Below are positions 6,109 through 25,938 of a DNA stretch of 42,557 nt, in pieces (position 1 is the stretch's first letter; every line of letters begins with the position of its first letter). This stretch comes from Rickettsiales bacterium (GTDB taxonomy: Bacteria > Pseudomonadota > Alphaproteobacteria > Rickettsiales > SXRF01): the NCBI GenBank assembly GCA_021299465.1, contig JAJTHB010000004.1, positions 1-42,557 on the forward strand, written 5' to 3'. Both the position numbers and the translations under genes were made by a program. Below the pieces are notes generated by a model. The model was not told the DNA's origin and made no database searches. It was given only the letters and a program-made list of their open reading frames with translations.

Positions 6109-7479
6109 ATGTCCCAAACCATATTGATTGCTGAAGATGACCCCGTGCAACATAAGATGCTATCGATGCTGCTTACCAAAAAGCTCGGATATGAGGTGAT
6201 TTCAACCAACAATGGCGCCGAGGCGGTGGAGCGCCTGCAATCCAGCAATGTGGGTGAGATCAGCGCCGTGCTGCTCGACATCAATATGCCCGTCATGGAT
6301 GGGTTCGAGGCACTAAAAACTATCCAAAAATATCGCCCCGATCTTCCCGTGCTCATACTCACCGGCAGCGACGATACCAATATCGCCGTGAAAGCTATAA
6401 AAGAAGGCGCCAGCGATTTTATTGTGAAGCCGCCAGAGCCCGCACATCTCGATATTGCCATCAAAAACGCCATTCGGCTTTCAACGCTTTCATACGAACT
6501 TGCCAAACTCAAACGTGATAAAGAAGGCGCGGTCGCCTTTACTGATTTGATCGGTTATAGCGCGGGGCTTGCTGCTACCGTTGCTTACGGGCGAAAAGCC
6601 GCTGCAGCGGATGTTCCGGTGTTGTTGATGGGTGAAACCGGTGTCGGCAAAGAGTTATTCGCCCGCACCATCCACGGCGAAAGTAAACGCGTCGGCGCGC
6701 CGTTCGTTGCACTTAATTGCAGCACTGTGGCGCATAATATCGAACAAACCTTGTTCGGCGTGGCAGCACCCGGACAAGCGGGGAAAATCCGCGCGGCCGA
6801 GGGCGGCACATTATTTCTGGATGACATCACCGAGCTCTCCCCCGACGCGCAGGTGCGACTACTGCGAGTATTGCAGCAAAGAGAGATCGAACCACAGGGC
6901 GGCGGCAAGCCTATCAAAGTCAATGTTCGCATCATTTCCGCTACCGACCGCGATATCAAACGCGATGTGCAAACAGGCCGCTTTCGCGAGGATTTATATT
7001 TCCGCCTGAACGTATTGCCAATTACGATTCCTTCGCTCCGTGAGCATCGTGAGGACATTGTGCCACTCGCAGAATACTTTATTCAAAAAATCTCGCTATC
7101 CGACCGCCTGCCAACCAAATCACTGGAACCGGATGCGGTGGATTACCTCATCCATCATGCATGGCCAGGCAATGTACGCGAGCTGGAAGGACTTATTCAC
7201 CGTGCGTTGGTGCTTGGAGATGGTGAGTCTATCGACCGTGCTATATTAGAGCAAATTCACGAGTCAACCGCACAGACAAAAATTACCGAACGCCGCGCGC
7301 CGCAGGCGCTGCATATCAACATGCGTAACGCCGACGGCAGCTTCAAAACCATGTCAGAAATTGAAAAAGAAACACTGCGTACCATGCTGGCTCATTTTGA
7401 AAATAACATCACCCGTACTTCAGATATACTCGGTATCGCCAAATCGACCTTTTACCGAAAAATAAAAGATGCACAGTAA
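6109..7479 (+). CDS. NtrC-family response regulator lacking the GAFTGA loop
   Basis: 456 residues. Receiver domain (1-120) with acceptor Asp57 in LLDINMPVMDG and Lys in IVKPPEP. AAA+ domain (~145-385) with Walker A GETGVGKE (175-182), Walker B TLFLDDI, the arginine-finger segment FREDLYFRLNVLPI, and AWPGNVREL. A Fis-type helix-turn-helix ends the protein (~415-455). Between LFG and GGTLFLDD, where sigma54 activators carry GAFTGA, this protein has a short VAAPGQAGKIRAAE stretch with no GAFTGA. Since that loop contacts sigma54, the protein may regulate a different polymerase form or repress. It is divergent from the relay operon and just upstream of a truncated haemoglobin gene. Confidence 0.92.
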   Translation: MSQTILIAEDDPVQHKMLSMLLTKKLGYEVISTNNGAEAVERLQSSNVGEISAVLLDINMPVMDGFEALKTIQKYRPDLPVLILTGSDDTNIAVKAIKEGASDFIVKPPEPAHLDIAIKNAIRLSTLSYELAKLKRDKEGAVAFTDLIGYSAGLAATVAYGRKAAAADVPVLLMGETGVGKELFARTIHGESKRVGAPFVALNCSTVAHNIEQTLFGVAAPGQAGKIRAAEGGTLFLDDITELSPDAQVRLLRVLQQREIEPQGGGKPIKVNVRIISATDRDIKRDVQTGRFREDLYFRLNVLPITIPSLREHREDIVPLAEYFIQKISLSDRLPTKSLEPDAVDYLIHHAWPGNVRELEGLIHRALVLGDGESIDRAILEQIHESTAQTKITERRAPQALHINMRNADGSFKTMSEIEKETLRTMLAHFENNITRTSDILGIAKSTFYRKIKDAQ

Positions 7480-7518
7480 ACTGTGCGCTTCTATACTGAG
7501 CTGAATAAGGGGGGTGGC

Positions 7519-7887
7519 ATGAGCAAACCACTATTTGAACGCATCGGCGGTGAATCGGCGGTGAAGGCGACCGTCATCAAAATGTATGACAAAATTCTCT
7601 CCGATGATGAACTTGCGCCGTTCTTCGATGATATCGACGTGGACAAGCTGCGCCTCAGCCAATCTGCTTTTGTAACCTATGCCTTCGGTGGCCCCAATCA
7701 TTACACCGGAAAATCGTTGCGCAACGCCCATGCGGGAGCAGTATCGCACGGCTTAAATGATCGCCATTTTGATCTTGTTGCTTCCCATCTGAAATCTGCC
7801 ATGCAGGAACTGGGCGTCTCACAAGACCTTATCGATGAAGCACTTACCATCGTAGGCTCTACCCGCAAGGATGTGCTTGGGCAGTAG
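7519..7887 (+). CDS. group 1 truncated haemoglobin
   Basis: 122 residues from the ATG at 7519, which is preceded by an AAGGGGGG Shine-Dalgarno; an upstream in-frame ATG at 7483 adds 12 non-conserved residues and lacks one. Family features: the LFERIGGESAV start, Tyr23 at the B10 position in KMYDKIL, the FGGP turn near 57-60, and His71 as probable proximal haem ligand in LRNAHAG. Such globins bind O2 or NO and often serve in NO detoxification or oxygen sensing. Its position 39 bp after the NtrC-like regulator suggests co-transcription. The neighbourhood (Crp/Fnr regulator, cbb3 oxidase) fits a low-oxygen or NO theme. Confidence 0.9.
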   Translation: MSKPLFERIGGESAVKATVIKMYDKILSDDELAPFFDDIDVDKLRLSQSAFVTYAFGGPNHYTGKSLRNAHAGAVSHGLNDRHFDLVASHLKSAMQELGVSQDLIDEALTIVGSTRKDVLGQ

Positions 7888-8065
7888 CGAATGATCTGAT
7901 TGCAGCATTCGAGTTAGGCTACTTGATTCAGCCAAATCCGAACCGGTTAAGCTTTTTACAGCTATTTTCACCACAAATAGTGGCCGACCGTGAGTGTTAA
8001 AGCACAAATACCCTTATAAATACTGTATTGCCCATCGGTTTGCTGTTGTGCTACTTAAAAAAGGC

Positions 8066-8788
8066 ATGAATCAAAAATCATCTACTGCACAGATACTTAG
8101 CAACCACATGCTGTTTGAAAACCAGCCAGTGCTGCTGGGTATGCTTGCACCGCATGTAAAGACCAAGTCGTTTGATAAAGATGATGTCGTAGTGCGGCAT
8201 GGTGATGCAGCGGATAGTCTCTGGCTCGTAATTTCAGGCTGGGTGAAACTCATGCGGCAAACGCCTGATGGCAAAGAGAGCATTATTGGTTTGTGTACTG
8301 CAGGTGATGTATTCGGTGAGGCCGCATTATTCCCACACGCCAATTATCCCTACACGGCAGAAGTAGTGGACGATAGTGCAGAGTTGATAGCTATTTCATC
8401 AACAACGATTCGTGCGCTGGTGGCAAAGGAAACCTCTGTTTCCAGCCACATCATGGCACTGTTAAACGACCGCACCTCGCAAGCACAACTTAAGTTAGAA
8501 CAAATGACGACAATGTCGGCTGCGCAGCGGCTTGGCTGTTTTTTACTGCGGCTTTGTCATACTCAGGCAAATGGCGCTAAGACGCTGCAAATACCCATTG
8601 AGAAACATATTCTAGCCGCCTATTTAGGGATGAAGCCTGAAACACTTTCTCGCACCCAGCAACAGCTTAAACCGGTTGGAATTTCGGTTGAAGGGCATGA
8701 TATCACCATCGGCAATATCGAGAAGCTACGAGAATTCGTCTGTAATAGCTGCTCAGAGTCCGGCAGTTGTGATATTGATAGGGATTAG
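8066..8788 (+). CDS. Crp/Fnr-family transcriptional regulator without N-terminal Fe-S cysteines
   Basis: 240 residues from the ATG at 8066 (MNQKSS); the in-frame ATG at 7994 would add a 24-residue tail of no family character. A cyclic-nucleotide-binding-like beta-roll (~20-135) with GDVFGEAALF precedes the dimer helix and a winged helix-turn-helix. The recognition helix contains ETLSR, and the E-S-R trio is what FNR/FixK proteins use to read TTGAT half-sites. The N-terminal four-cysteine cluster of oxygen-sensing FNR is absent, so FixK- or Dnr/NnrR-like signalling is more likely. The C-terminus carries an odd cysteine-rich tail, CNSCSESGSC. Boxes matching its expected specificity occur at 9897-9924 and 18232-18245. 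Its stop overlaps the convergent gene by 4 bp. Confidence 0.88.
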   Translation: MNQKSSTAQILSNHMLFENQPVLLGMLAPHVKTKSFDKDDVVVRHGDAADSLWLVISGWVKLMRQTPDGKESIIGLCTAGDVFGEAALFPHANYPYTAEVVDDSAELIAISSTTIRALVAKETSVSSHIMALLNDRTSQAQLKLEQMTTMSAAQRLGCFLLRLCHTQANGAKTLQIPIEKHILAAYLGMKPETLSRTQQQLKPVGISVEGHDITIGNIEKLREFVCNSCSESGSCDIDRD

Positions 8789-9204
8789 CTCGAGAGTACA
8801 TTCTCAAGCGCTTGGCTTAACTGCCCGCTTTCAGCCTGGTTAAACCAAGCTGCTACCAACGGATATTCAATCTCAGCTGCGACACTCCTAATAACCTGAG
8901 AAGGTAAGGTATGGCGCATCCAGGCAACGTCGTTGGAACTGCCGACAAGCAACAGCTGATCAAACCGCCTGCCTTCTGCTGCATTCACGATGGTATGCGT
9001 GAAATCATCCATGGATGCGGCAACGCACTTACCTGCTTGTGGTAATAGCGTCATATGACCATTCGCTTCCTTCTCAAAAAGCACGATCATACCGGCACAG
9101 GCAGCTACAACCCAGATACGCGGCAGAGCACTACAAGCACCGCTCTTACACTTGCCAGAACAGGCTTTGACTGGATGCAGTGAGGTAACTTTACCGCTGC
9201 ACAT
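8785..9204 (-). CDS. host-attachment-like (BaeRF-type) protein with cysteine-rich N-terminus
   Basis: 139 residues. After a Cys-rich segment (residues 1-30: ACSGKCKSGACSALPR), the body resembles the 'host attachment' family related to bacterial/archaeal eRF1-like domains: an IWVVAACAGMIVLFE strand pair corresponding to the usual WVVVAD...ARIFE, then RFDQLLLVGSS, a HTLPSQVIRSVAAEIE segment, and a C-terminal helix. The name is historical; molecular function is unclear. The start lies 3 bp after the OmpW stop in the same direction, so it is likely co-transcribed with ompW from the FNR-boxed promoter. The Cys-rich leader may bind metal or haem; that is inference. Confidence 0.6.
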   Translation of the reverse strand: MCSGKVTSLHPVKACSGKCKSGACSALPRIWVVAACAGMIVLFEKEANGHMTLLPQAGKCVAASMDDFTHTIVNAAEGRRFDQLLLVGSSNDVAWMRHTLPSQVIRSVAAEIEYPLVAAWFNQAESGQLSQALENVLSS

Positions 9205-9207
9205 ACA

Positions 9208-9837
9208 TTAAAACTTATAACCAACACCAACGCCAACCACCCACGGGTTGATATCAACATCGGCACGAATGGCGCCGTTATTGAACTTTACATCGGTATT
9301 GATCCAGATTTTTTTCACATCTACATTGAGCATCCAGTGATCATCCAGCATGTAATCCATGCCGGCCTGCAGAGCCGGGCCAAAGCTATCATCATAGTCC
9401 ACGCTCGTGACCGATGTGCCTTTATCTTCTGCGAAGAAATGCGTGTAGTTGACGCCCGCACCAAGATACGGCTTGAATTGGCCAAGATCGGTGAAATGAT
9501 ACTGTATGGTGAGCGTTGGCGGCAATAACCATACATCACCCAGATCAAGCGCACCGGCACTGCTGGTTTTCGTATTCACATCATGTGGCGTAATCGCGGC
9601 AATAAGCTCAAATGCGATATTATTGGTCACGAAATAGCTGACGTCCAATTCTGGAACTACTGATGTATCGATATCGATCTGGCTGCCGGTCACCGCACCA
9701 GAAATTTTTGCGTCCTCATCAGGAATCACGCTGATCGCACGTGCGCGAACGATAAAATCGCCAGCCTTGGGCATTTCAGCAGCAACAGCGGGCATAGCAA
9801 CGGTGTTAACAAGTAGTGCAAATAATAGCTTCTTCAT
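9208..9837 (-). CDS. ompW: OmpW-family outer membrane protein
   Basis: 209 residues with a cleavable signal peptide (MKKLLFALLVNTVAMPAVAA, cut after about residue 20). The mature part follows OmpW: early FIVRARAISVIPDE, ELDVSYFVTNNIAFELIAA, LLPPTLTIQYHF, FKPYLGAGVNYTHFF, FGPALQAGMDY, and a terminal aromatic strand ending VGVGVGYKF, whose last Phe is the usual outer-membrane assembly signal. OmpW proteins form small eight-stranded beta-barrels for hydrophobic solutes and are commonly FNR-controlled. Two abutting FNR-type boxes lie 60-87 bp upstream, consistent with that regulation. Confidence 0.93.
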   Translation of the reverse strand: MKKLLFALLVNTVAMPAVAAEMPKAGDFIVRARAISVIPDEDAKISGAVTGSQIDIDTSVVPELDVSYFVTNNIAFELIAAITPHDVNTKTSSAGALDLGDVWLLPPTLTIQYHFTDLGQFKPYLGAGVNYTHFFAEDKGTSVTSVDYDDSFGPALQAGMDYMLDDHWMLNVDVKKIWINTDVKFNNGAIRADVDINPWVVGVGVGYKF

Positions 9838-9896: not shown

Positions 9897-9910
9897 TTGA
9901 TGTAAATCAA
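9897..9910. promoter_or_regulatory. FNR/FixK box TTGAT-N4-ATCAA (perfect)
   Basis: The sequence TTGATGTAAATCAA is an exact match to the FNR/FixK (anaerobox) consensus. It lies between divergent ompW (start 9837) and ydcH-like (start 9965), so it could control either. Its centre is about 67 bp from the ompW start codon, which suits a class II activation position (about -41) for a short leader. Confidence 0.85.
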
Positions 9911-10204: not shown

Positions 10205-10353
10205 GATTTCGTTTCGTCGTCATCGCGCAGCATGCGATGGGGTGCGCCTTCCAGATCTTCAAACTGGCCGCTTTTCATCGCCCAGAAGAAAGCGACAAGC
10301 CCAATCAAGCCAAGCGTGAGTGCGATGGGAATGAGGTAGACGAGTACGTTCAT
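10201..10353 (-). CDS. ccoS: cbb3 oxidase assembly protein CcoS
   Basis: 50 residues, found by direct translation. Begins MNVLVYLIPIALTLGLIGLV, a single transmembrane helix, then AFFWAMKSGQFEDLEG and a charged tail ending DDDETKS. The FxWaxxxGQfdDLegpa pattern is diagnostic for CcoS/FixS. Its ATG overlaps the ccoI stop (ATGA, 10350-10353). CcoS is needed for maturation of the cbb3 oxidase, especially cofactor insertion into CcoN. It is the last gene of the fixNOQP-GHIS operon. Confidence 0.92.
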   Translation of the reverse strand: MNVLVYLIPIALTLGLIGLVAFFWAMKSGQFEDLEGAPHRMLRDDDETKS

Positions 10354-12491
10354 AATCGTCTCGCATTCAAACGCATGGCATTAGCGATGACCAGTAATGA
10401 TGAACTCGACATCGCGATCGCGGCAATGAGCGGTGTCACATAGCCGGCAACCGCGAGCGGAATGGCAATCACATTATAACCTATGGCGAGCAGAAAATTC
10501 TGTTTCACCAGTATTTGTGATAGTTTTGCTGTATTCAGGGCCGTAAGCACAGGTTGTAATGTATTGCCCTGAAATACAATATCAGCCGCACTTTGGGTGA
10601 TATCCATCGCCGTTGCAGGCGACATGGAAACCGTAGCGCTTGAAAGCGACGGCGCATCGTTTAGCCCATCCCCAACCATTAATACATTCGCGCCATGTGC
10701 TTTGAGCGCAGCAATTCTCTGGGTTTTTTCAACAGGTGTGAGTGCGCCTTCAAACGCTGTAATGCCAAGCTTTTCTGCAATATTCTTTGTTACTTCTATC
10801 CTGTCGCCGGAAAGCAGCAATGTTTTGATTCCAAAAGATTGTAGAGCATCAATCACTTCCTTTGCATCAGCGCGCAGCTCATCGGCAAATGTGAAGCGGA
10901 CGTAATGTTTTCTCTCCTCTGCCAGCCATAACTCCAACGTATTGTCTGAGTCATCCGTCAAATTTGTTGCCCAGCTTCTTTTTCCTAATTTTACTCCCGC
11001 CGCCTCAAGGCCATACCCCTGCACTTCACGCACATTCATCATCGGCGTTATATTAGGGCATGCGCGGACAAGCGCTTGTGAAAGCGGGTGTTTGCTATTG
11101 ATCGAAAGCGAGGCAGCAAGCTGTAGTTGCTCCTGCGAATGGCTGGAAGTGAGGGTTGGCTTACCCAGTGTTAGTGTCCCGGTTTTATCAAACACCGCAT
11201 GCGTAATAGTGGCGAGACGTTCAAGCGCACTGCCGCTTTTAAGCAAAATACCAGAGCGCATCAGTTTGCCGCTGGCCAACACCTGTACCACCGGAACAGC
11301 GAGGCCAAGGGCGCATGGGCAGGTGATAATGAGGACTGTTGCGGCATAGAGCAATGCCACCTGCCACGGTATACCCCCCCATAGTATCCACCCGGCAAAT
11401 GTTGCAGCAGCAAGTGCATGCACAGCAGGTGTGTACCAACTCGAAATACGATCTGCGAGGGTGACATATTTCGCCTGTGCCTGCTCCGCGGACTCCATGA
11501 GTTTGACAATTTCAGAAAGCAGCGAGCGCTCACCTGCCCTGGTCACGCGCATGGTAATAGGCGCGGCCATATTTATCGTTCCGGCGAATAGTGCCGTACC
11601 TGACATGGCCCCGCGCGGCTGGCTTTCGCCGGTAATCAGGCTGGTATCTATTTCTGTTGTGCCCGAAATTACCAAACCGTCGGCGCCAATTTTTTCGCCA
11701 GCGGCCACCATTAGCACCATGCCTTCTTTGATATCTGACAGTGGGATGGTTTCCTGCGCACCGCTTTCATGCAAAACCGTTGCAAAGCCCGTCATCATTT
11801 GCAGCAAATCATGCGCTGCGCTGCGTGCACGGCCGCGTGCCCTTGCCTCCAGATAGCGTCCGATGAGCAGGAAAAAAAGCAGCATCACGCCAGAATCGAA
11901 ATAGGAATATAACCCGCCAGTTGCTGTCTCAAACAGGCTCATCAGCGTGGCCAGAATCACCGCAACCGAAATCGGCACGTCCATATTGGTTTTTAGCGCA
12001 CGCAGCGCCTTTAATGCCGAGCGGTAAAAGGGGATGCCGCAGTAAGCGATCGCTGGAATTGCAATCGCCGCCTGCATCCAGTGAAAGAGGGTGCGTGTGG
12101 CCTCGCCCATCTCCACAGCATCACTGCTCCATAGCGGAATAGAAAACAGCATCAGATTGCCACTGGCAAAACCAGCAACGGCCAGACAGCGTAGTAAAAA
12201 CTTTTCTTCTTTTATCTCAGAAGTTTCTGCCGTAGCAGGATCAAACGGCACCGCGTGGTAGCCCATGCCGTTGATCATCTCTATCCATTTATCACCCAGT
12301 ATATTTGAGCCTTTCCATGCAATGCGCAGTCGCTTGGTGGAAAGATTGAGGCGTGCATTCTGTACCGCCGTTTGTTTTATAAGAGCATTCTCAATAATCG
12401 CGACGCACGAAGGGCAATGCATGCCCTCAACCAGCAAATTCAAACTATGCAGACCGCTTGGCTCCGTGGTGATAAAATGCGCGCTGCTCAT
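10350..12491 (-). CDS. ccoI: copper-exporting P1B-type ATPase CcoI/FixI
   Basis: 713 residues. An N-terminal heavy-metal-associated domain carries GMHCPSC (Cys26, Cys29). Transmembrane helices follow, with the TGES actuator loop (287-290), the metal-transporting CPC motif in the membrane (391-393), the phosphorylation site DKTGT (Asp435), and GDGLNDAP near the C-terminus. This is the FixI/CcoI subgroup by length and operon context; it delivers copper across the inner membrane for cbb3 oxidase maturation. The start overlaps ccoH by ATGA (12488-12491). Confidence 0.94.
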   Translation of the reverse strand: MSSAHFITTEPSGLHSLNLLVEGMHCPSCVAIIENALIKQTAVQNARLNLSTKRLRIAWKGSNILGDKWIEMINGMGYHAVPFDPATAETSEIKEEKFLLRCLAVAGFASGNLMLFSIPLWSSDAVEMGEATRTLFHWMQAAIAIPAIAYCGIPFYRSALKALRALKTNMDVPISVAVILATLMSLFETATGGLYSYFDSGVMLLFFLLIGRYLEARARGRARSAAHDLLQMMTGFATVLHESGAQETIPLSDIKEGMVLMVAAGEKIGADGLVISGTTEIDTSLITGESQPRGAMSGTALFAGTINMAAPITMRVTRAGERSLLSEIVKLMESAEQAQAKYVTLADRISSWYTPAVHALAAATFAGWILWGGIPWQVALLYAATVLIITCPCALGLAVPVVQVLASGKLMRSGILLKSGSALERLATITHAVFDKTGTLTLGKPTLTSSHSQEQLQLAASLSINSKHPLSQALVRACPNITPMMNVREVQGYGLEAAGVKLGKRSWATNLTDDSDNTLELWLAEERKHYVRFTFADELRADAKEVIDALQSFGIKTLLLSGDRIEVTKNIAEKLGITAFEGALTPVEKTQRIAALKAHGANVLMVGDGLNDAPSLSSATVSMSPATAMDITQSAADIVFQGNTLQPVLTALNTAKLSQILVKQNFLLAIGYNVIAIPLAVAGYVTPLIAAIAMSSSSLLVIANAMRLNARRL

Positions 12492-12925
12492 TTTACAATA
12501 ATCCGTTTAGATTTCTGGTAGTTTTTATCATCCACGACAGCATCTACCCGCACATGCCAAACGCCCTTGGCAGGAAAAGTAACCGGTGTTTCATCACCTT
12601 TTAATTCTACCTTAAAATCCATGCCTTGCTGTGCTGGACGGGTAATGGTGGCGGTTATTTGTGCTGGTGTTATAACGGCGCCGTTTTTGTCTTTTAGTAT
12701 GAAGGTTAGTGCGCTGTCATTATAGCGAATCTCACCTACCCAACCTAGCTCCTTCTGTTTCTTCTCGGCTTCCACCACCTGATTATAGGCGAGGCCTTTT
12801 TCATAGGGATGGTCGGTAACAACACCACTATGGGTGCGGATGGCAAGCGTCATCATTACGGCGTTCACCGAAGCAACAAAGCCAAAAAACAAGATAAAAT
12901 AAAAGGCTACGCGTTTTCCGGTCAT
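12488..12925 (-). CDS. ccoH: FixH/CcoH cbb3 oxidase assembly protein
   Basis: 145 residues. One N-terminal transmembrane helix (about 6-28) is followed by a periplasmic domain. Family features: THSGVVTDHPYEKGLAYN, then GWVGEIRY, and a terminal KGVWHVRVDAV strand region, as in FixH. Overlaps ccoG upstream and ccoI downstream by ATGA on both sides. It acts in assembly of the cbb3 complex at the inner membrane. Confidence 0.92.
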   Translation of the reverse strand: MTGKRVAFYFILFFGFVASVNAVMMTLAIRTHSGVVTDHPYEKGLAYNQVVEAEKKQKELGWVGEIRYNDSALTFILKDKNGAVITPAQITATITRPAQQGMDFKVELKGDETPVTFPAKGVWHVRVDAVVDDKNYQKSKRIIVK

Positions 12926-14301
12926 TTCGTATCGCTGACAAAAATACTATTCTCAGATGTTGTTACAGTATGGTCGGTTTCAGTGAGTTGAAACATAATC
13001 TCACTACGTGATTCAGTTTGTTTATCAGCGGTAAGAAATACGCGGAAATGACCAACCGAATTGGCAAACACAGGCAAGCTATCAACCGGAATGTCACTGC
13101 TTGCCTGAACGCGAATTTCCTGATGATTAAGCCCATGCACGCTAAGCGCATAGCGTTTATCCTCGTGATGTTTATTAATAACGGTGATGTTGTAGCCGTT
13201 GCGAATGGAACCATCGGAGAGCTTCACAAACAATGGGTTGCGGTCGTGGATGACGTTCATCTCCAGCGGTGAGCGCGTGAGCAGACTGTAGAGCATCAAA
13301 CAGCCAACGAGCGAAATAATGCCGCCATACCAAAAGGTGCGTGGGCGAAGGGGGTTGAACTTGGTTTTGCTCTCGGTGTCATAACGAATCAGGCCTTTGG
13401 GTAGCCCAATTTTATCCATTACATTATCACACGCGTCCACGCATAGACCGCAAGCAATGCATTCCATCTGCAACCCTTGCCGGATATCAATGCCCATCGG
13501 GCAGACGACGACACAGCTATCGCAATCGATGCAATGGCCGCGCCCTTGCCATGAATCACCTGCTTTATGCTTACCACGCGGCTCGCCACGTTTCTCATCA
13601 TAGGCGATAATCAGTGTATCCTTGTCGAACATGGCTGATTGAAACCGCGCATAGGGGCACATATAGGTGCAGACCTGTTCGCGAGCATATCCCGCCATAA
13701 GATAGGTAGAGCCAGTCAGTGCCAGAATCCAGCCGCCGACACTCCAGGGTACATCGAAATGAATGATCTGGTCGAATAAGGTCGGCGCATCGTTGAAATA
13801 AAAAACCCAGGCACCGCCGGTGAGCAGCGCGATCACAAGCCAAATAAGATGGGTCAGGCTAATTTTCCGGATTTTTTCGAATGTCCATTTGGATTCATCA
13901 AGTTTTTTACGCGCATTGCGATCCCCCTGCACAATACGTTCGACCCACACGAATAAATCCGTCCACACGGTTTGCGGGCAGGCATACCCACACCACACAC
14001 GGCCAAACAGCGAGGTCACGAAAAATAGCCCGACCGCTGCCAAAATTAAAATACCGGTAAGGTAATAAACCTCCTGCGGCCAGATTTCGATGCCGAAAAA
14101 ATAAGCGCGACGGCCTGGCATATCGATCAGAATCGCCTGATCAGGCGTGTGCTCCCCGCGATACCAGCGCAGCCACGGCGCACCGTAATAAACTGCAAGC
14201 AGTGAAATCATCACTGCCCATTTTGCTTTGCGAAATTTGCCCCATACACGCTTTGGGTAGATTTTTTCTTGTTTTTTGAAAAGCTGTATCGTCGCGTCCA
14301 T
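12922..14301 (-). CDS. ccoG: cbb3 oxidase accessory protein CcoG (FixG/RdxA)
   Basis: 459 residues. Several transmembrane helices precede a bis-[4Fe-4S] ferredoxin domain with CIDCDSCVVVCP and CIACGLCVDACD motifs; a further Cys pair in WCGYACPQTVW and CTYMCPYARFQ lies in the membrane part. A periplasmic Ig-like domain ends the protein. CcoG is a cupric reductase supplying Cu(I) for cbb3 assembly. The ATG at 14301 is preceded by AAGGAATTAGCAC, a good Shine-Dalgarno. It follows ccoP by 17 bp. Confidence 0.94.
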   Translation of the reverse strand: MDATIQLFKKQEKIYPKRVWGKFRKAKWAVMISLLAVYYGAPWLRWYRGEHTPDQAILIDMPGRRAYFFGIEIWPQEVYYLTGILILAAVGLFFVTSLFGRVWCGYACPQTVWTDLFVWVERIVQGDRNARKKLDESKWTFEKIRKISLTHLIWLVIALLTGGAWVFYFNDAPTLFDQIIHFDVPWSVGGWILALTGSTYLMAGYAREQVCTYMCPYARFQSAMFDKDTLIIAYDEKRGEPRGKHKAGDSWQGRGHCIDCDSCVVVCPMGIDIRQGLQMECIACGLCVDACDNVMDKIGLPKGLIRYDTESKTKFNPLRPRTFWYGGIISLVGCLMLYSLLTRSPLEMNVIHDRNPLFVKLSDGSIRNGYNITVINKHHEDKRYALSVHGLNHQEIRVQASSDIPVDSLPVFANSVGHFRVFLTADKQTESRSEIMFQLTETDHTVTTSENSIFVSDTK

Positions 14302-14318
14302 GTGCTAATTCCTTAGGC

Positions 14319-15209
14319 CTATTTTTTATTAAGTTCGGCTTCTCCCCCGCCGAGTGAATGCACATAAACAGCGATTGCCTTGATGGTATCATCGGACAGG
14401 CGCGACTCCCAATCGGGCATGACGCCGCCATACGCATTAGTCACCATATCCATGACTGCTGCGCGGCTTCCACCATAGAGCCAGATACCATCTGTTAAAT
14501 TGGGCGCGCCTAGCTCACGCTTACCCATGCCGGTATCGCCATGGCATGAGCTGCAATTATCGGCAAATAGCTTTTTTCCATGTTCATGCGTTGGTTTGAG
14601 CACGCTACCTGAAAGTGTAAGCACATAGTCAGCGACCATTTCCACTTCTTCGCGTTTTAAAATACCGTCGCGACCAAAGGCGGGCATCTGCGACATATGA
14701 GTTTGGTCATGTTTGCTGCGTATACCATATTTGATGGTGGCATAGATTTCATCGAGATGCCCCCCCCAGATCCAGTCATAATCATTAAGGTTGGGATAGC
14801 CCTTGCCGCCAGCAGCGCCCGTGCCATGGCAGGCGGCGCAGTTTTCCTTAAACATGGCTTTACCGCCAGCTATGGCAAACGTATACAATTTCGGATCGTT
14901 TTGAATTTCCTGCAGGCTTTTGCCCAAAAGCGCTTTACCCTGCTGCCCCCGCCGCTCAAGAATCTCGGCTTGCTCCTCGGCCAGTTTTTTATGCGATGTC
15001 CAGCCCGCAATACCCTGAGTATGGCCGGAAAGCGTTGGCCATGCAGGGTAAACTACCCAATAGCCCACTGCCCAGATGACGGTGATGAAAAACACCCATA
15101 GCCACCAGCGCGGCGCTGGATTGTTAAGCTCTTTCAGCCCATCCCATTCATGCCCTGTCGTTTCAACACCGGAATGTTGATCGATATCTTTTTTATCGTC
15201 ATTAGTCAT
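14319..15209 (-). CDS. ccoP: cbb3 oxidase subunit III, dihaem cytochrome c CcoP
   Basis: 296 residues from the ATG at 15209, which overlaps the ccoQ stop by 8 bp (ATGACTAA) and has GGAG about 9 bp upstream; the ORF extends to an ATG at 15242 with no matching signal. An N-terminal FixP_N region with one transmembrane helix (~35-55) is followed by two cytochrome c domains with CAACH and CSSCH haem-binding motifs and distal Met ligands in MSQMPAF and GVMPDW contexts. It carries electrons from the bc1 complex or soluble cytochrome to CcoO. Confidence 0.95.
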   Translation of the reverse strand: MTNDDKKDIDQHSGVETTGHEWDGLKELNNPAPRWWLWVFFITVIWAVGYWVVYPAWPTLSGHTQGIAGWTSHKKLAEEQAEILERRGQQGKALLGKSLQEIQNDPKLYTFAIAGGKAMFKENCAACHGTGAAGGKGYPNLNDYDWIWGGHLDEIYATIKYGIRSKHDQTHMSQMPAFGRDGILKREEVEMVADYVLTLSGSVLKPTHEHGKKLFADNCSSCHGDTGMGKRELGAPNLTDGIWLYGGSRAAVMDMVTNAYGGVMPDWESRLSDDTIKAIAVYVHSLGGGEAELNKK

Positions 15210-15357
15210 GGTTTTTATTCTCCACGAGCGGAATATGGGCATAGTTCTGCATTTGTTTTTTCACACTTGGGCGGTAGGTGCGATACGCAACCCAAAGGAA
15301 AAAAGTAAAGAAAAAGATCAGTGCGCTCGTAGGGGCGTATTCATAAATCAGGTTCAT
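15202..15357 (-). CDS. ccoQ: cbb3 oxidase subunit IV CcoQ
   Basis: 51 residues, found by direct translation between ccoO and ccoP. Starts [20 protein letters not shown], a single transmembrane helix, and continues [20 protein letters not shown] with a short charged tail. Length, one-helix topology and the YRPS..K segment fit CcoQ/FixQ. The ATG overlaps the ccoO stop (ATGA, 15354-15357), and the stop overlaps the ccoP start. CcoQ stabilises the assembled oxidase. Confidence 0.92.
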
Positions 15358-16109
15358 GGTTTTGCCTCGCCAGACTTCACGCTGCTTAAGTTTTGATTGA
15401 GTTGATAATCCTTGATATCTGCCAGCGTGCCGAGCGTTTGCAGGTAGGCTACCAGCGCATCCATCTCGGAGACAAAATTCTTCTGCCCATCGAAATCACG
15501 CACATTCACTTTGTTGCCATAGCGCGCGATAAGCGCACTCGTATCACCGTCTAAACGTGCCTGCGCCATGGCATCGTTGTAGGCGTTTTCAATCATCTCA
15601 TCGCTGTACGGCACACCCACCACACGGTAGGTTTTCAGAAGCCTCGAAACGTTGCCGATATCCGCCCCTGCATTCATCATGAAGCGATAAGAGGGCATGA
15701 TGGATTCCGGCACCACATCGCGTGGGCGAATGAGATGCGCGACGTGCCATTCATCCGAATATTTGGCACCGACGCGCGCTAAATCCGGCCCGATGCGCTT
15801 ACTGCCCCAGAGAAACGGATGGTCATACATGCTTTCCGCCGCGAGTGAATAATGGCCATAACGCTCCACTTCATCACGCAAGGGACGAATTTGCTGGCTA
15901 TGACACGAGGAACAGTTCTCTCGGATGTAAATTTGCTGCCCTGTCAGCTCAAGCGGCGTCAGCGGACGCATACCGCTGACTTTTTCGATCGTTGTTTCAA
16001 CACGAAACAGCGGCACGATTTCTACCAATCCACCAATTGAAATCGCAACCAGAGTAAAGACAAGCAAAAGAATAGAATTTTTCTCGAGCTTCTTATGATG
16101 ATTAAGCAT
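15354..16109 (-). CDS. ccoO: cbb3 oxidase subunit II, monohaem cytochrome c CcoO
   Basis: 251 residues from the ATG at 16109, preceded by GAAGGAGG at ideal spacing; the ORF also opens from a TTG at 16127, which lies upstream of that Shine-Dalgarno and so is unlikely. An N-terminal membrane anchor (~10-30) precedes [18 protein letters not shown] with the CxxCH haem motif, then [23 protein letters not shown] and GPDLARVG, all hallmarks of FixO. Overlaps the ccoN stop by 8 bp. Confidence 0.95.
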
Positions 16110-17532
16110 AAGCAGCCTCCTTCGCAACCACTGGCTTCGGAGGGTTTACCGTGCGCCAGCAATTATAAACCATGATCAGCATACCAGTGAGATAGAGCAG
16201 CCCACCGATAGCGCGAATGATGTAGTAGGGATGCATCGCTTCCACGGTTTCTACGAAGGAATATTCAAGGAAGCCCATCGCATCATAGGCGCGCCACATG
16301 AGACCCTGCATAATACCAGAAATCCACATGGCAGTGATGTAAAATACAATACCAATGGTCGATACCCATAGGTGGATATTCACCAGACGCAGCGAGTATA
16401 GCTCCTGCTTTTTCCATAGCACCGGAACTAGATGATAGATCGCGCCGAAACTAATGAAAGCCACCCAGCCGAGCGCGCCGGAATGCACGTGGCCAATGCC
16501 CCAATCAGTGTAGTGCGATAGCGAGTTCACCGTCTTGATCGACATCAGCGGCCCTTCAAAGGTGCTCATGCCGTAAAAAGCGAGCGCAACAATCATGAAG
16601 CGCAATACCGGATCATCGCGCAGCTTGTTCCACGCGCCTGATAACGTCATCACGCCATTAATCATACCGCCCCAACTCGGCATCCACAGCATGATAGAAA
16701 ACGTCATGCCGAGCGTTTGCGCCCAATCAGGCAGCGCCGTGTAATGCAGATGGTGCGGCCCTGCCCAGATATAGATAAAGATAAGCGACCAGAAATGCAG
16801 GATCGACAAGCGGTATGAGTAGACCGGGCGATTCGCGCGCTTGGGGATGAAATAATACATGATGCCTAGAAAGCCAGCGGTCAGGAAAAAACCAACCGCA
16901 TTATGGCCATACCACCACTGAATAAGGGCCGCCTGCACACCCGCCCACAGAGGTACCGACTTCGCGCCAAGACCAGAGACCGGAATGCTGATGCCGTTCA
17001 CCAGATGCAGCACGGCGACCGTTGCAATGAACGCAAGGAAAAACCAGTTCGCCACATAGATATGCGGCTCTTCGCGGTGTTTCAGCGTCATCAGGAATAC
17101 AATTAGATATGCCACCCACACAACAGTGAGCCACAAATCAGCGTACCATTCCGGCTCTGCATATTCCTTGCCCTGTGTGATGCCCAGCACATAGCCGAGC
17201 GCAGCCATCACGATGAATGCCTGATAGCCCCAGAAGGTAAAGTTCGCGAGCTTGTCGTTCCACAGCCTTGTGCGGCAGGTGCGCTGCACAACAAAATAGG
17301 AAGTGGCGAACAGCACGCTGCCGCCAAAGGCAAAAATCACACCCGATGTATGCACCGGGCGCAAGCGGCCAAAGGAAAGATATGGCTCAAAATTTAGATC
17401 AGGAAACGCCATTTGCAGTGAGATCACCAGCCCCACCAACATGCCCACCACACCCCAGAAGAGCGCAGCGATAGTGAATTTCTTGACGATATCGTCATTG
17501 TAAATTGGCGCGGTGCGCATGGCTGCTTGCAT
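16102..17532 (-). CDS. ccoN: cbb3 oxidase catalytic subunit I CcoN
   Basis: 476 residues with about 12 transmembrane helices. Haem-copper ligands are visible: His61 in RPVHTSG (low-spin haem), WWYGHNAV around 206-213 and the HH pair in GPHHLHYT near 260 (Cu-B), and [12 protein letters not shown] near 346-356 (haem ligands). This is the terminal reductase of the high-affinity cbb3 cytochrome oxidase. The ATG at 17532 follows AATGAGGTAAGAAA, 4 bp after the stop of the TauE/SafE-like gene, so the two share a transcript. Confidence 0.96.
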
Positions 17533-17536
17533 TTTC

Positions 17537-18184
17537 TTACCTCATTGTTTTTGCGGCCATCGCAAGAAGCGCCAGCCCGTTAAATGCTAATCCGAATCGG
17601 CCGATGCCGCGCATCATGTCTTGCCATTTCAGTGCTAATATTGCCGCACCACCGCTTGCGAGGAGCAAGGCTGGAATTGTGCCCAGCACAAACAGCCACA
17701 TAGCAACCATACCTAAAAGAGGATGAGCAAGCGTTGCCGCCATCATCAGAGCGGCATAGATCAAGCCGCACGGCATAAAGCTCATCATCGCGCCACGCAG
17801 AAATCCATTTTTTGGTGCGTAGGAAAGCAGCGCATGTTGATTAGGAATAATCGCGCTGAGCAGAAATAATCCTGCTGCCAGAACCATCATCGCCATTGAA
17901 ACCATCGGCCAGTAGCTTGCTGCCGCCAGATGTTTTGAAAGCAGTGCTGCAAAAAACCCCAGCGCCCCATATGTAGCAAGACGACCCAAATGATACTGCC
18001 ATTGCGAGGCAGCACTCATGCGCATGCCACAGCTGCCACCACACGCCGACTGGCATGCCACCACCGGACCGCACATGATAAGACAGTGGGTGAGGCTACC
18101 CATAAGCCCCCCCAGAAAAAACACGGCAAACTTTCCCCCAGACTGGGAAAATGCCGCTAAGCAATGCGCGAATAATGCTTCCAT
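17537..18184 (-). CDS. TauE/SafE (UreH/DsbD-like) membrane protein, first gene of cbb3 operon
   Basis: 215 residues from the ATG at 18184, which has AAGGAATTAGT upstream; the ORF could open at 18217 but that would push it toward the FNR box. Six hydrophobic helices. Cysteines in [10 protein letters not shown], a CGGSCGM loop and SFMPCGLIY match the 'sulfite exporter TauE/SafE' subgroup found beside cbb3 genes. That subgroup is related to DsbD/CcdA-type thiol transporters and is thought to support copper handling or cytochrome maturation. Position before ccoN with only 4 bp between them supports such a role. Confidence 0.85.
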
Positions 18185-18231
18185 TACTAATTCCTTCAGG
18201 AAACAATCTATAATCAAGGCATTTCAGCGCC

Positions 18232-18245
18232 TTGATTTGTATCAA
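18232..18245. promoter_or_regulatory. FNR/FixK box upstream of the cbb3 operon (perfect)
   Basis: TTGATTTGTATCAA matches TTGAT-N4-ATCAA exactly and is centred about 54 bp before the start of the TauE/SafE-like gene, the first gene of the leftward TauE-ccoNOQPGHIS operon. The position fits class II activation with a short leader and supports the downstream start codon at 18184. As at the ompW site, ATCAA is followed by GTGAT, although here the second half-site is poor. Confidence 0.88.
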
Positions 18246-24852: not shown

Positions 24853-25938
24853 ATGACAGCATCACAGCAATATAAAACCCTGGTTTTCCCTGCGCTTGGA
24901 CAAGATGCTCTCGATTACCTATCGGCCGCTAAGCGTCGTTTTGAACCACTGATTGCAGCCGCATCTGTTTATGATGCCGACATGGAAGCCGCATTTGGAA
25001 CATTACAGATACTGCCTTATGTTTATGACGAAGCATTTGAGGAAGTCTTTGTATCACTCTTGACCACCAATCAGATCAGCGAGATTTACTCTCCCGTGGC
25101 CAGCGTCTACGCCTATCTTGAAAAATTCATAGCCCAAAAAAAACTTGCCATAAACTTAATCGGCAATTCACCCATTCGTGATCAGGTTGATGCCTACCGC
25201 TTACTGCGAAAGAAAGCGGCCGCGGCGCATGGATTCATTTCCACCTGCGCCGATACAGAAAACATTGTTTCACCCATTGAAACGGCAGCCATCACTCGCC
25301 ATGCCAGACATATTTATGGTGAATCGAACAATGATAAGCTTACTGCGATAATGGCTATTTTTGCCAGCGCGCCAAAAGGCGACGTCGTGGAAATTGGCTC
25401 GATGCTTGGTAAGTCGCTTTCCGTGCTGCAATATCTTGCTAAACGTTATCAAATTGGTTCCGTGCTCTCGGTTGATCCGCTCACGCCCGCCGCATCGTTG
25501 CAGCATGACTCTCCCACTGTCGCCCTCGCCTCGATGGATGACCAATGGGATTATGATATTTTGCGCGAAGCCATCATCATCAATGCACTGCCGCTTGCTT
25601 TCGGGCAGTTCAATTATATTCGCATGGAATCAGAGTTCGCGTTTGATGTGTATCAAAAACAAGGTGTGATTCGCAGCGAGCATTTTGGTGATGTATCTTA
25701 TTCTGGGAAGATCAGTGTCATCCATATTGATGGCAATCATGATTATAAACAGGTCAATAAGGATTGCGAGCTATGGCTTACGCGGCTTGCACCAGGCGCA
25801 TGGGTTATTATCGATGATTATATCTGGGCGCATGGCGACGGGCCGTATCGTGTGGGCAATAGCCTGCTGGAAAAACGCTGGCAGGATATTGAGCGCGCGT
25901 TTGTATGCGGCAAGGCATTGTTTATACAATTCCGTTAA
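24853..25938 (+). CDS. class I SAM-dependent methyltransferase (Methyltransf_24-like)
   Basis: 361 residues. The N-terminal ~150 residues are unrecognised. The C-terminal part has motif I VVEIGSMLGKSLSVL (~176-190), VLSVDPL (motif II acidic end), IHIDGNHDYKQVNKD (motif IV, with the HIDGxHxY signature of this subgroup) and WVIIDDYIW. This signature occurs in sugar and secondary-metabolite methyltransferases, including macrocin O-methyltransferase relatives. SD GGAAGG precedes the ATG. It opens the glycan/modification locus that runs to 39557; O-methylation of a sugar is plausible but inferred. Confidence 0.8.
   Translation: MTASQQYKTLVFPALGQDALDYLSAAKRRFEPLIAAASVYDADMEAAFGTLQILPYVYDEAFEEVFVSLLTTNQISEIYSPVASVYAYLEKFIAQKKLAINLIGNSPIRDQVDAYRLLRKKAAAAHGFISTCADTENIVSPIETAAITRHARHIYGESNNDKLTAIMAIFASAPKGDVVEIGSMLGKSLSVLQYLAKRYQIGSVLSVDPLTPAASLQHDSPTVALASMDDQWDYDILREAIIINALPLAFGQFNYIRMESEFAFDVYQKQGVIRSEHFGDVSYSGKISVIHIDGNHDYKQVNKDCELWLTRLAPGAWVIIDDYIWAHGDGPYRVGNSLLEKRWQDIERAFVCGKALFIQFR

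Follow-up and report, generated by a model that had tools for sequence, protein, structure and literature searches.

FNR is the textbook oxygen switch, and the residues E-S-R in its recognition helix give specificity for TTGAT sites. In FNR of the E. coli type the cluster cysteines are N-terminal, with one more in the center of the protein (PMC4999443, in the excerpt used here). The same excerpt recognizes alphaproteobacterial FNR by its N-terminal cysteines and treats relatives that lack them as FixK-like; FixK is without cluster cysteines, and no C-terminal set is mentioned in that excerpt (PMC4999443). For Gram-positive FNR, a C-terminal cluster has been described (PMC12937710, in excerpt). 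Specifically, Fnr of Bacillus subtilis carries a C-terminal, oxygen-labile [4Fe-4S] cluster on C227, C230, C235, and D141 (PMC3520743, in excerpt). The last spacing in this set is x4 when taken from the residue numbers and x3 as printed in the background section of that paper (PMC3520743).

Here we describe a Crp/Fnr-type regulator from a Rickettsiales bacterium that has its conserved cysteines near the C-terminus. It is encoded in a window of 42,557 nucleotides, by which we mean the whole stretch of DNA that was analyzed. The features of the window discussed below are collected in Table 1.

Table 1. Features of the regulator, its gene neighborhood, and the FNR boxes (positions are those of the window)
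Feature	Position	Strand	Basis
Crp/Fnr-type regulator, 240 aa, with C-terminal Cys tail	8066..8788	+	translation, domain scan, comparison with solved structures and folds
Cys158, proposed fourth ligand, in model helix 152-163	8537..8539	+	58/58 type I tails, 0/32 type II tails
Cys164, second conserved Cys, just past helix 152-163; less likely ligand	8555..8557	+	54/58 type I tails
Recognition helix residues E192-T-L-S195-R196	8639..8653	+	E192, S195, and R196 invariant in alignment A1
Tail C226-x2-C229-x5-C235 (CNSCSESGSC)	8741..8770	+	kept in each of the other 12 close orthologues
Small protein with invariant C15-x3-C19-x4-C24, convergent to the regulator; weak Pelota/Balon-like predicted fold	8785..9204	-	neighborhood, alignment, fold search
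OmpW family outer-membrane protein	9208..9837	-	domain scan
FNR box upstream of ompW, position conserved	9897..9910	.	motif search, comparison across loci
cbb3 oxidase cluster: DsbD_2-like, ccoN, ccoO, ccoP, ccoG, ccoH, ccoI	10350..18217	-	family scans, neighborhood
FNR box upstream of the cbb3 cluster, at a conserved position	18232..18245	.	motif search, comparison across loci, -10 analysis
Third perfect FNR box, within ORF 24853-25938 and probably a chance match	25643..25656	.	motif search, ORF list

The translated product terminates in VCNSCSESGSCDIDRD. Since its reading frame extends back to a GTG at 7994, the start codon at 8066 is an assignment. A cNMP_binding domain followed by HTH_Crp_2, both above the Pfam cut-off, places the protein in the Crp/Fnr superfamily. 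Matches to NCBIfam were all sub-threshold (FtrB, 102 bits; Fnr, 56.5 bits against the curated NF008365 cut-off of 228 bits). The earliest cysteine is C77, so the regulator is without the N-terminal cysteine cluster of canonical FNR, as the original prediction had stated. The E-S-R trio that it placed in the recognition helix is likewise present, unchanged across all eight rows of an alignment of close orthologues (A1). The cysteine-rich tail was also read correctly, but it does not form the very end of the protein; DIDRD comes after it. CRP, the cAMP receptor, is marked by the Arg-Ser/Thr of its phosphate-binding cassette. In the A1 rows, no Arg occurs within the FGEAALFPHANYPYTA stretch, the putative counterpart of this cassette.

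By sequence, the regulator comes closest among solved structures to DNR and a Ruegeria pomeroyi protein (3fx3/3h3z); the profile match to these ends where the tail starts. An AlphaFold2 model of the regulator (mean pLDDT 86) matches holo-FNR of A. fischeri (Z 24; 2.4-2.5 Å over 220-222 residues), tied with other Crp/Fnr chains; several CRP-type chains lie within one Z unit. The tail is not placed by the model (pLDDT <50 for residues 231-240).

An order-wide scan of 343 genomes identified 12 close orthologues besides the window's own (E <=1.5e-101, 49-72% identity). All 12 carry C-x2-C-x5-C (seven A1 rows plus L048, L052, L054, L055, and L056), which puts the tail beyond chance. Poor conservation among close orthologues had been named in advance as the outcome that would refute a role for the tail, and the reverse was found. 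When paralogues are added, in a set of 23 sequences, 12 columns are invariant; these include C229, C235, and recognition-helix residues.

For a wider comparison we used 155 unique full-length homologues, the window's own included. They were gathered with tail-bearing queries, with 60 regions taken from the remaining order and class matches; ORFs that lacked a stop or covered the domains only in part were excluded, and 51 loci with weak matches, mostly Bacteroidota (L077-L127), were left out. Given this selection, the fractions are not natural frequencies: a type I tail (C-x2-C-x4..6-C) is present in 58 of the 155, a four-cysteine type II tail (C-x2-C-x6..9-C-x5..9-C) in 32, and a third pattern with shifted tail cysteines and C158 kept in 3, leaving 62 with none of these. 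The last spacing in type I tails is x5 in 52 proteins and x6 in 6. At L011, L148, and L238 the tails have five cysteines (C-x3-C-x5-C plus two more), with C158 kept and Ser at 164. Four-cysteine tails occur in Crp/Fnr proteins of gammaproteobacterial MAGs (Candidatus Thioglobus, SUP05, Ruthturnera, and others; L068-L072 and L074-L076), with two copies each in L068 and L070. Such proteins are also found with an NIT (nitrate/nitrite sensing) domain fused at the N-terminus (L059, 9029-10687; L060, 2233-3792). Eight of the 32 type II ORFs exceed 400 aa, and NIT was identified in both of the two long ones scanned. A scan of viral contigs for the tailed regulator gave 52 pattern matches, with no relative among them. 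Among the best 30 of 979 plasmid records the highest identity was 33%, and these matches stop at residue 223-234 of the regulator. The open-access literature, to which our search was confined with subscription papers outside its scope, yielded no description of this tail in Proteobacteria.

A fourth cysteine goes with the tail. Cys158, on a helix that precedes the DNA-binding helices in the AlphaFold2 model, is present in every type I protein, in no type II protein, and in 10 of the 62 homologues without either tail; two of these ten have degenerate tails (L164, L218). The type I proteins have a mean pairwise identity of 34% and share 11 invariant columns (G58, G69, C158, K180, A184, S195, R196, L201, and the three tail cysteines). 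The tail cysteines are invariant by definition of the type, and C158 is one of the 8 columns not used to define it. Type II proteins have Cys at neither 158 nor 164 (0/32), and their residue 158 is W (22), R (5), Y (4), or H (1). Cys164 was considered as the main ligand and rejected, as four of the 58 type I proteins lack it. Asp is nowhere fully conserved in the 58 (best D47, 49/58); E145 is kept in 57. Because C158 accompanies three-cysteine tails and never four-cysteine tails, one four-thiolate site with a swapped ligand is suggested. Going by the sequences, the simplest reading would be a site with three tail ligands plus C158, or with four tail ligands. On a quick tree with long branches, C158 changes 5 times and tail type 10 times, with only 3 phylogenetically independent pairs, so this complementarity is not independent statistical evidence; Fisher p-values were not relied on, since the sequences are related.

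Searches of the genome (1.95 Mb, 98.6% complete) with HTH_Crp_2 and with cNMP_binding both detect this regulator alone, which makes it the natural reader of FNR boxes. The canonical Fnr cut-off is passed in none of the 13 genomes of the group, of which G318, G040, and G004 are 73, 75, and 91% complete, and it is a strict test that only 1 of 14 control genomes passes. Genes of the cbb3 oxidase adjoin the regulator in all ten relatives compared (L048-L057), although L053 has only ccoN pieces and the DsbD_2-like gene. In the window, ccoN was named from its sequence and place rather than from the family-library scan. The DsbD_2-like membrane protein (17537-18217, minus strand), which comes first in the cluster, before ccoN, has a Cys-rich stretch of its own. 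The ompW gene is found in 7 of the 10 relatives.

Perfect TTGATnnnnATCAA boxes occur four times in the genome, three of them within the window. The proposal that the regulator reads all three fits the two boxes that keep their promoter positions, the regulator being the sole Crp/Fnr protein detected, but not the one at 25643, within a coding ORF. The fourth (L035) has no recognizable respiratory gene nearby and was taken as chance. Positions were compared with at most 1 mismatch allowed. All 8 loci with ompW, the window among them, have a box whose center precedes the ompW start by about 63-91 bp. The small gene has a box upstream in L049 and L056 and none there in L053; overall, 10 of 11 loci have a box upstream of ompW or, failing that, of the small gene. 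For the DsbD_2-like gene, the distance between the box center and the site that aligns with the start listed in the window is 19-25 bp in all five loci that extend upstream of the gene (window, L049, L050, L051, L053); in L052, L055, and L057 the gene runs to the locus end. The background rate for a 150-bp stretch is 1.9% in these loci, falling to 0.8% when upstream regions are shuffled. Matches to a -10-like element are highest some 18-22 nt beyond the box (mean 3.73 of 6, versus 2.27-3.53 at other offsets). This modest peak has a spacing that suits a box centered near -41, the arrangement of class II activation.

Among the box evidence, only these conserved positions count. In the bacterium's own genome, perfect boxes number 4 versus 1 for the backward control, a poor null that contains TAG; with one mismatch the counts are 146 versus 31, which makes such boxes weak evidence by themselves. 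In the 13 genomes that have a close orthologue, perfect boxes number only 2-13 each. The genome-wide count was rejected as evidence because, among the 343 genomes of the order, boxes exceed the backward control even where the regulator is absent.

We consider it probable, at roughly 0.6, that this protein is an Fnr-like activator of cbb3 respiration that senses oxygen (or NO) through a [4Fe-4S] cluster at its C-terminus. C226, C229, and C235, together with C158, would hold one cluster on the DNA-binding domain. At low oxygen the intact cluster would keep the helix-turn-helix competent for binding, and the dimer could then activate the cbb3 cluster and the ompW/small-protein genes by binding TTGA-n6-TCAA boxes some 41 bp upstream of their start points. 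Oxygen (or NO) would destroy the cluster, free the tail, and lower activity. The observed basis comprises the conservation of the tail and C158, the complementarity with four-cysteine tails, the sole Crp/Fnr status, the box positions, and the gene order; from these we infer the metal ([4Fe-4S]), the role of C158 as fourth ligand, and which way the switch works.

Cys4 sites can also bind zinc, and four conserved thiolates with one C-x2-C pair would suit a structural zinc that fastens the tail onto the DNA-binding domain, with the signal sensed elsewhere or the protein always active. We regard this as unlikely. The remaining two ligands form no C-x2-C pair, and the spacing matches known [4Fe-4S] sites in two unrelated proteins that, like the regulator, combine one distant Cys with C-x2-C-x5-C: WhiB1 (C9, C37, C40, and C46; PMC6282962, in excerpt) and an endonuclease III (C199, C206, C209, and C215; PMC9268735, in excerpt). 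Furthermore, the box-bearing neighbors are a classical oxygen-controlled set, and the (strict) canonical Fnr cut-off is reached by none of the genes in these genomes. Less probable still is a metal-free thiol/disulfide switch, in which oxidized tail cysteines would pair with C158 or C164 and lower DNA binding. The two lie within or just past one helix and are conserved together with the tail, as such a switch would predict, yet two cysteines suffice for a disulfide and four are invariant together. In addition, C164 varies while C158 does not, and absence of C158 is accompanied by a fourth tail cysteine.

The small protein beside the regulator has a cysteine motif that is invariant in 10 of 10 alignment rows, and its gene follows the regulator, convergently, in 9 of the 10 relatives. 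With both motifs conserved and the genes adjoining, the tail could serve as a protein-contact element, for example for this neighbor, with a metal shared between the two proteins. This is improbable, as tailed paralogues exist elsewhere (known from their sequences) and the convergent genes are not co-transcribed. The predicted fold of the small protein is closest, though weakly, to Pelota, eRF1, and Balon, a hibernation factor (Foldseek E 7e-4 to 2.5e-3, TM 0.42-0.50); Pfam baeRF_family10 gave E 0.002, below the cut-off. The small protein may possibly be a low-oxygen-induced ribosome factor.

A truncated haemoglobin (Bac_globin, 7483-7887, plus strand) lies upstream of the regulator, as originally noted, and is directly preceded by an NtrC-type regulator (6109-7479, plus strand). 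Neither is found beside the Crp/Fnr regulator in the ten relatives. A functional link to the globin was rejected: blastp (E 1e-4) gave no match in the flanks of these relatives, with upstream coverage of 10 kb for five of them and less for L057 (6 kb), L056 (about 4 kb), and L050, L051, and L054 (about 1.6-2.7 kb). The motif of c-type haem is C-x2-C-H. Despite DNR being among the nearest solved relatives and the globin upstream in the window, a DNR-like haem or NO sensor with the tail as haem or nitrosyl ligand is very improbable, given that the tail motif differs from that of c-type haem, that no His column is invariant among the 58 tailed proteins (best H45, 31/58), and that the globin was not found in the examined flanks of the relatives. 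Overall, the suggestion that the tail is a metal, haem, or redox switch survives best as metal or redox, since the tail is conserved and goes with Cys158, while its haem component is not supported.

Returning to the C-terminal cluster, a broader proposal is more tentative, and we place it somewhat below even odds. The regulator may belong to an extensive, unrecognized class of proteobacterial Fnr that senses oxygen with an all-cysteine C-terminal [4Fe-4S]. One form would use three tail cysteines plus Cys158, and a sister form, which also includes SUP05/Thioglobus proteins and some fused to NIT nitrate-sensing domains, four tail cysteines, so that a ligand would have been swapped inside a single family. 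The regulator would also replace canonical FNR as master of cbb3 respiration in these Rickettsiales-related genomes. If true, a proteobacterial C-terminal-cluster class would alter calls of FNR versus FixK-like, supply an oxygen sensor to lineages seemingly without one, and, with its 3+1 and 4-ligand forms, offer a natural series in which to study the rewiring of an Fe-S sensor within a single fold.

Compared with known systems, the regulator shares with E. coli and Aliivibrio FNR and with alphaproteobacterial FnrN/FnrL the fold, the E-S-R residues, the TTGAT boxes, and, as proposed here, the cbb3 targets, but lacks their N-terminal and central cluster cysteines; the motif C-x2..3-C-x4..8-C was found at the N-terminus of none of the 58 type I proteins. 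It resembles FixK and FixK2 in its boxes and in its proposed cbb3 control without N-terminal cysteines. The Bacillus precedent, like Cys158 and the conserved cbb3 neighborhood, was not part of the original prediction. B. subtilis and B. cereus Fnr are Crp/Fnr family members that also carry sensor cysteines in a C-terminal extension beside the helix-turn-helix. Their spacing, however, is C-x2-C-x4-C, one residue shorter than C-x2-C-x5-C here, the fourth ligand is Asp141 rather than the proposed Cys158, and they occur in Gram-positives rather than Proteobacteria. By analogy, the best reading is that the regulator works like Bacillus Fnr, with another tail spacing and a putative metal cluster. 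It is best read as a variant within the Crp/Fnr kind: the C-terminal cluster is known from Bacillus Fnr, and this proteobacterial tail is apparently undescribed in the open-access literature.
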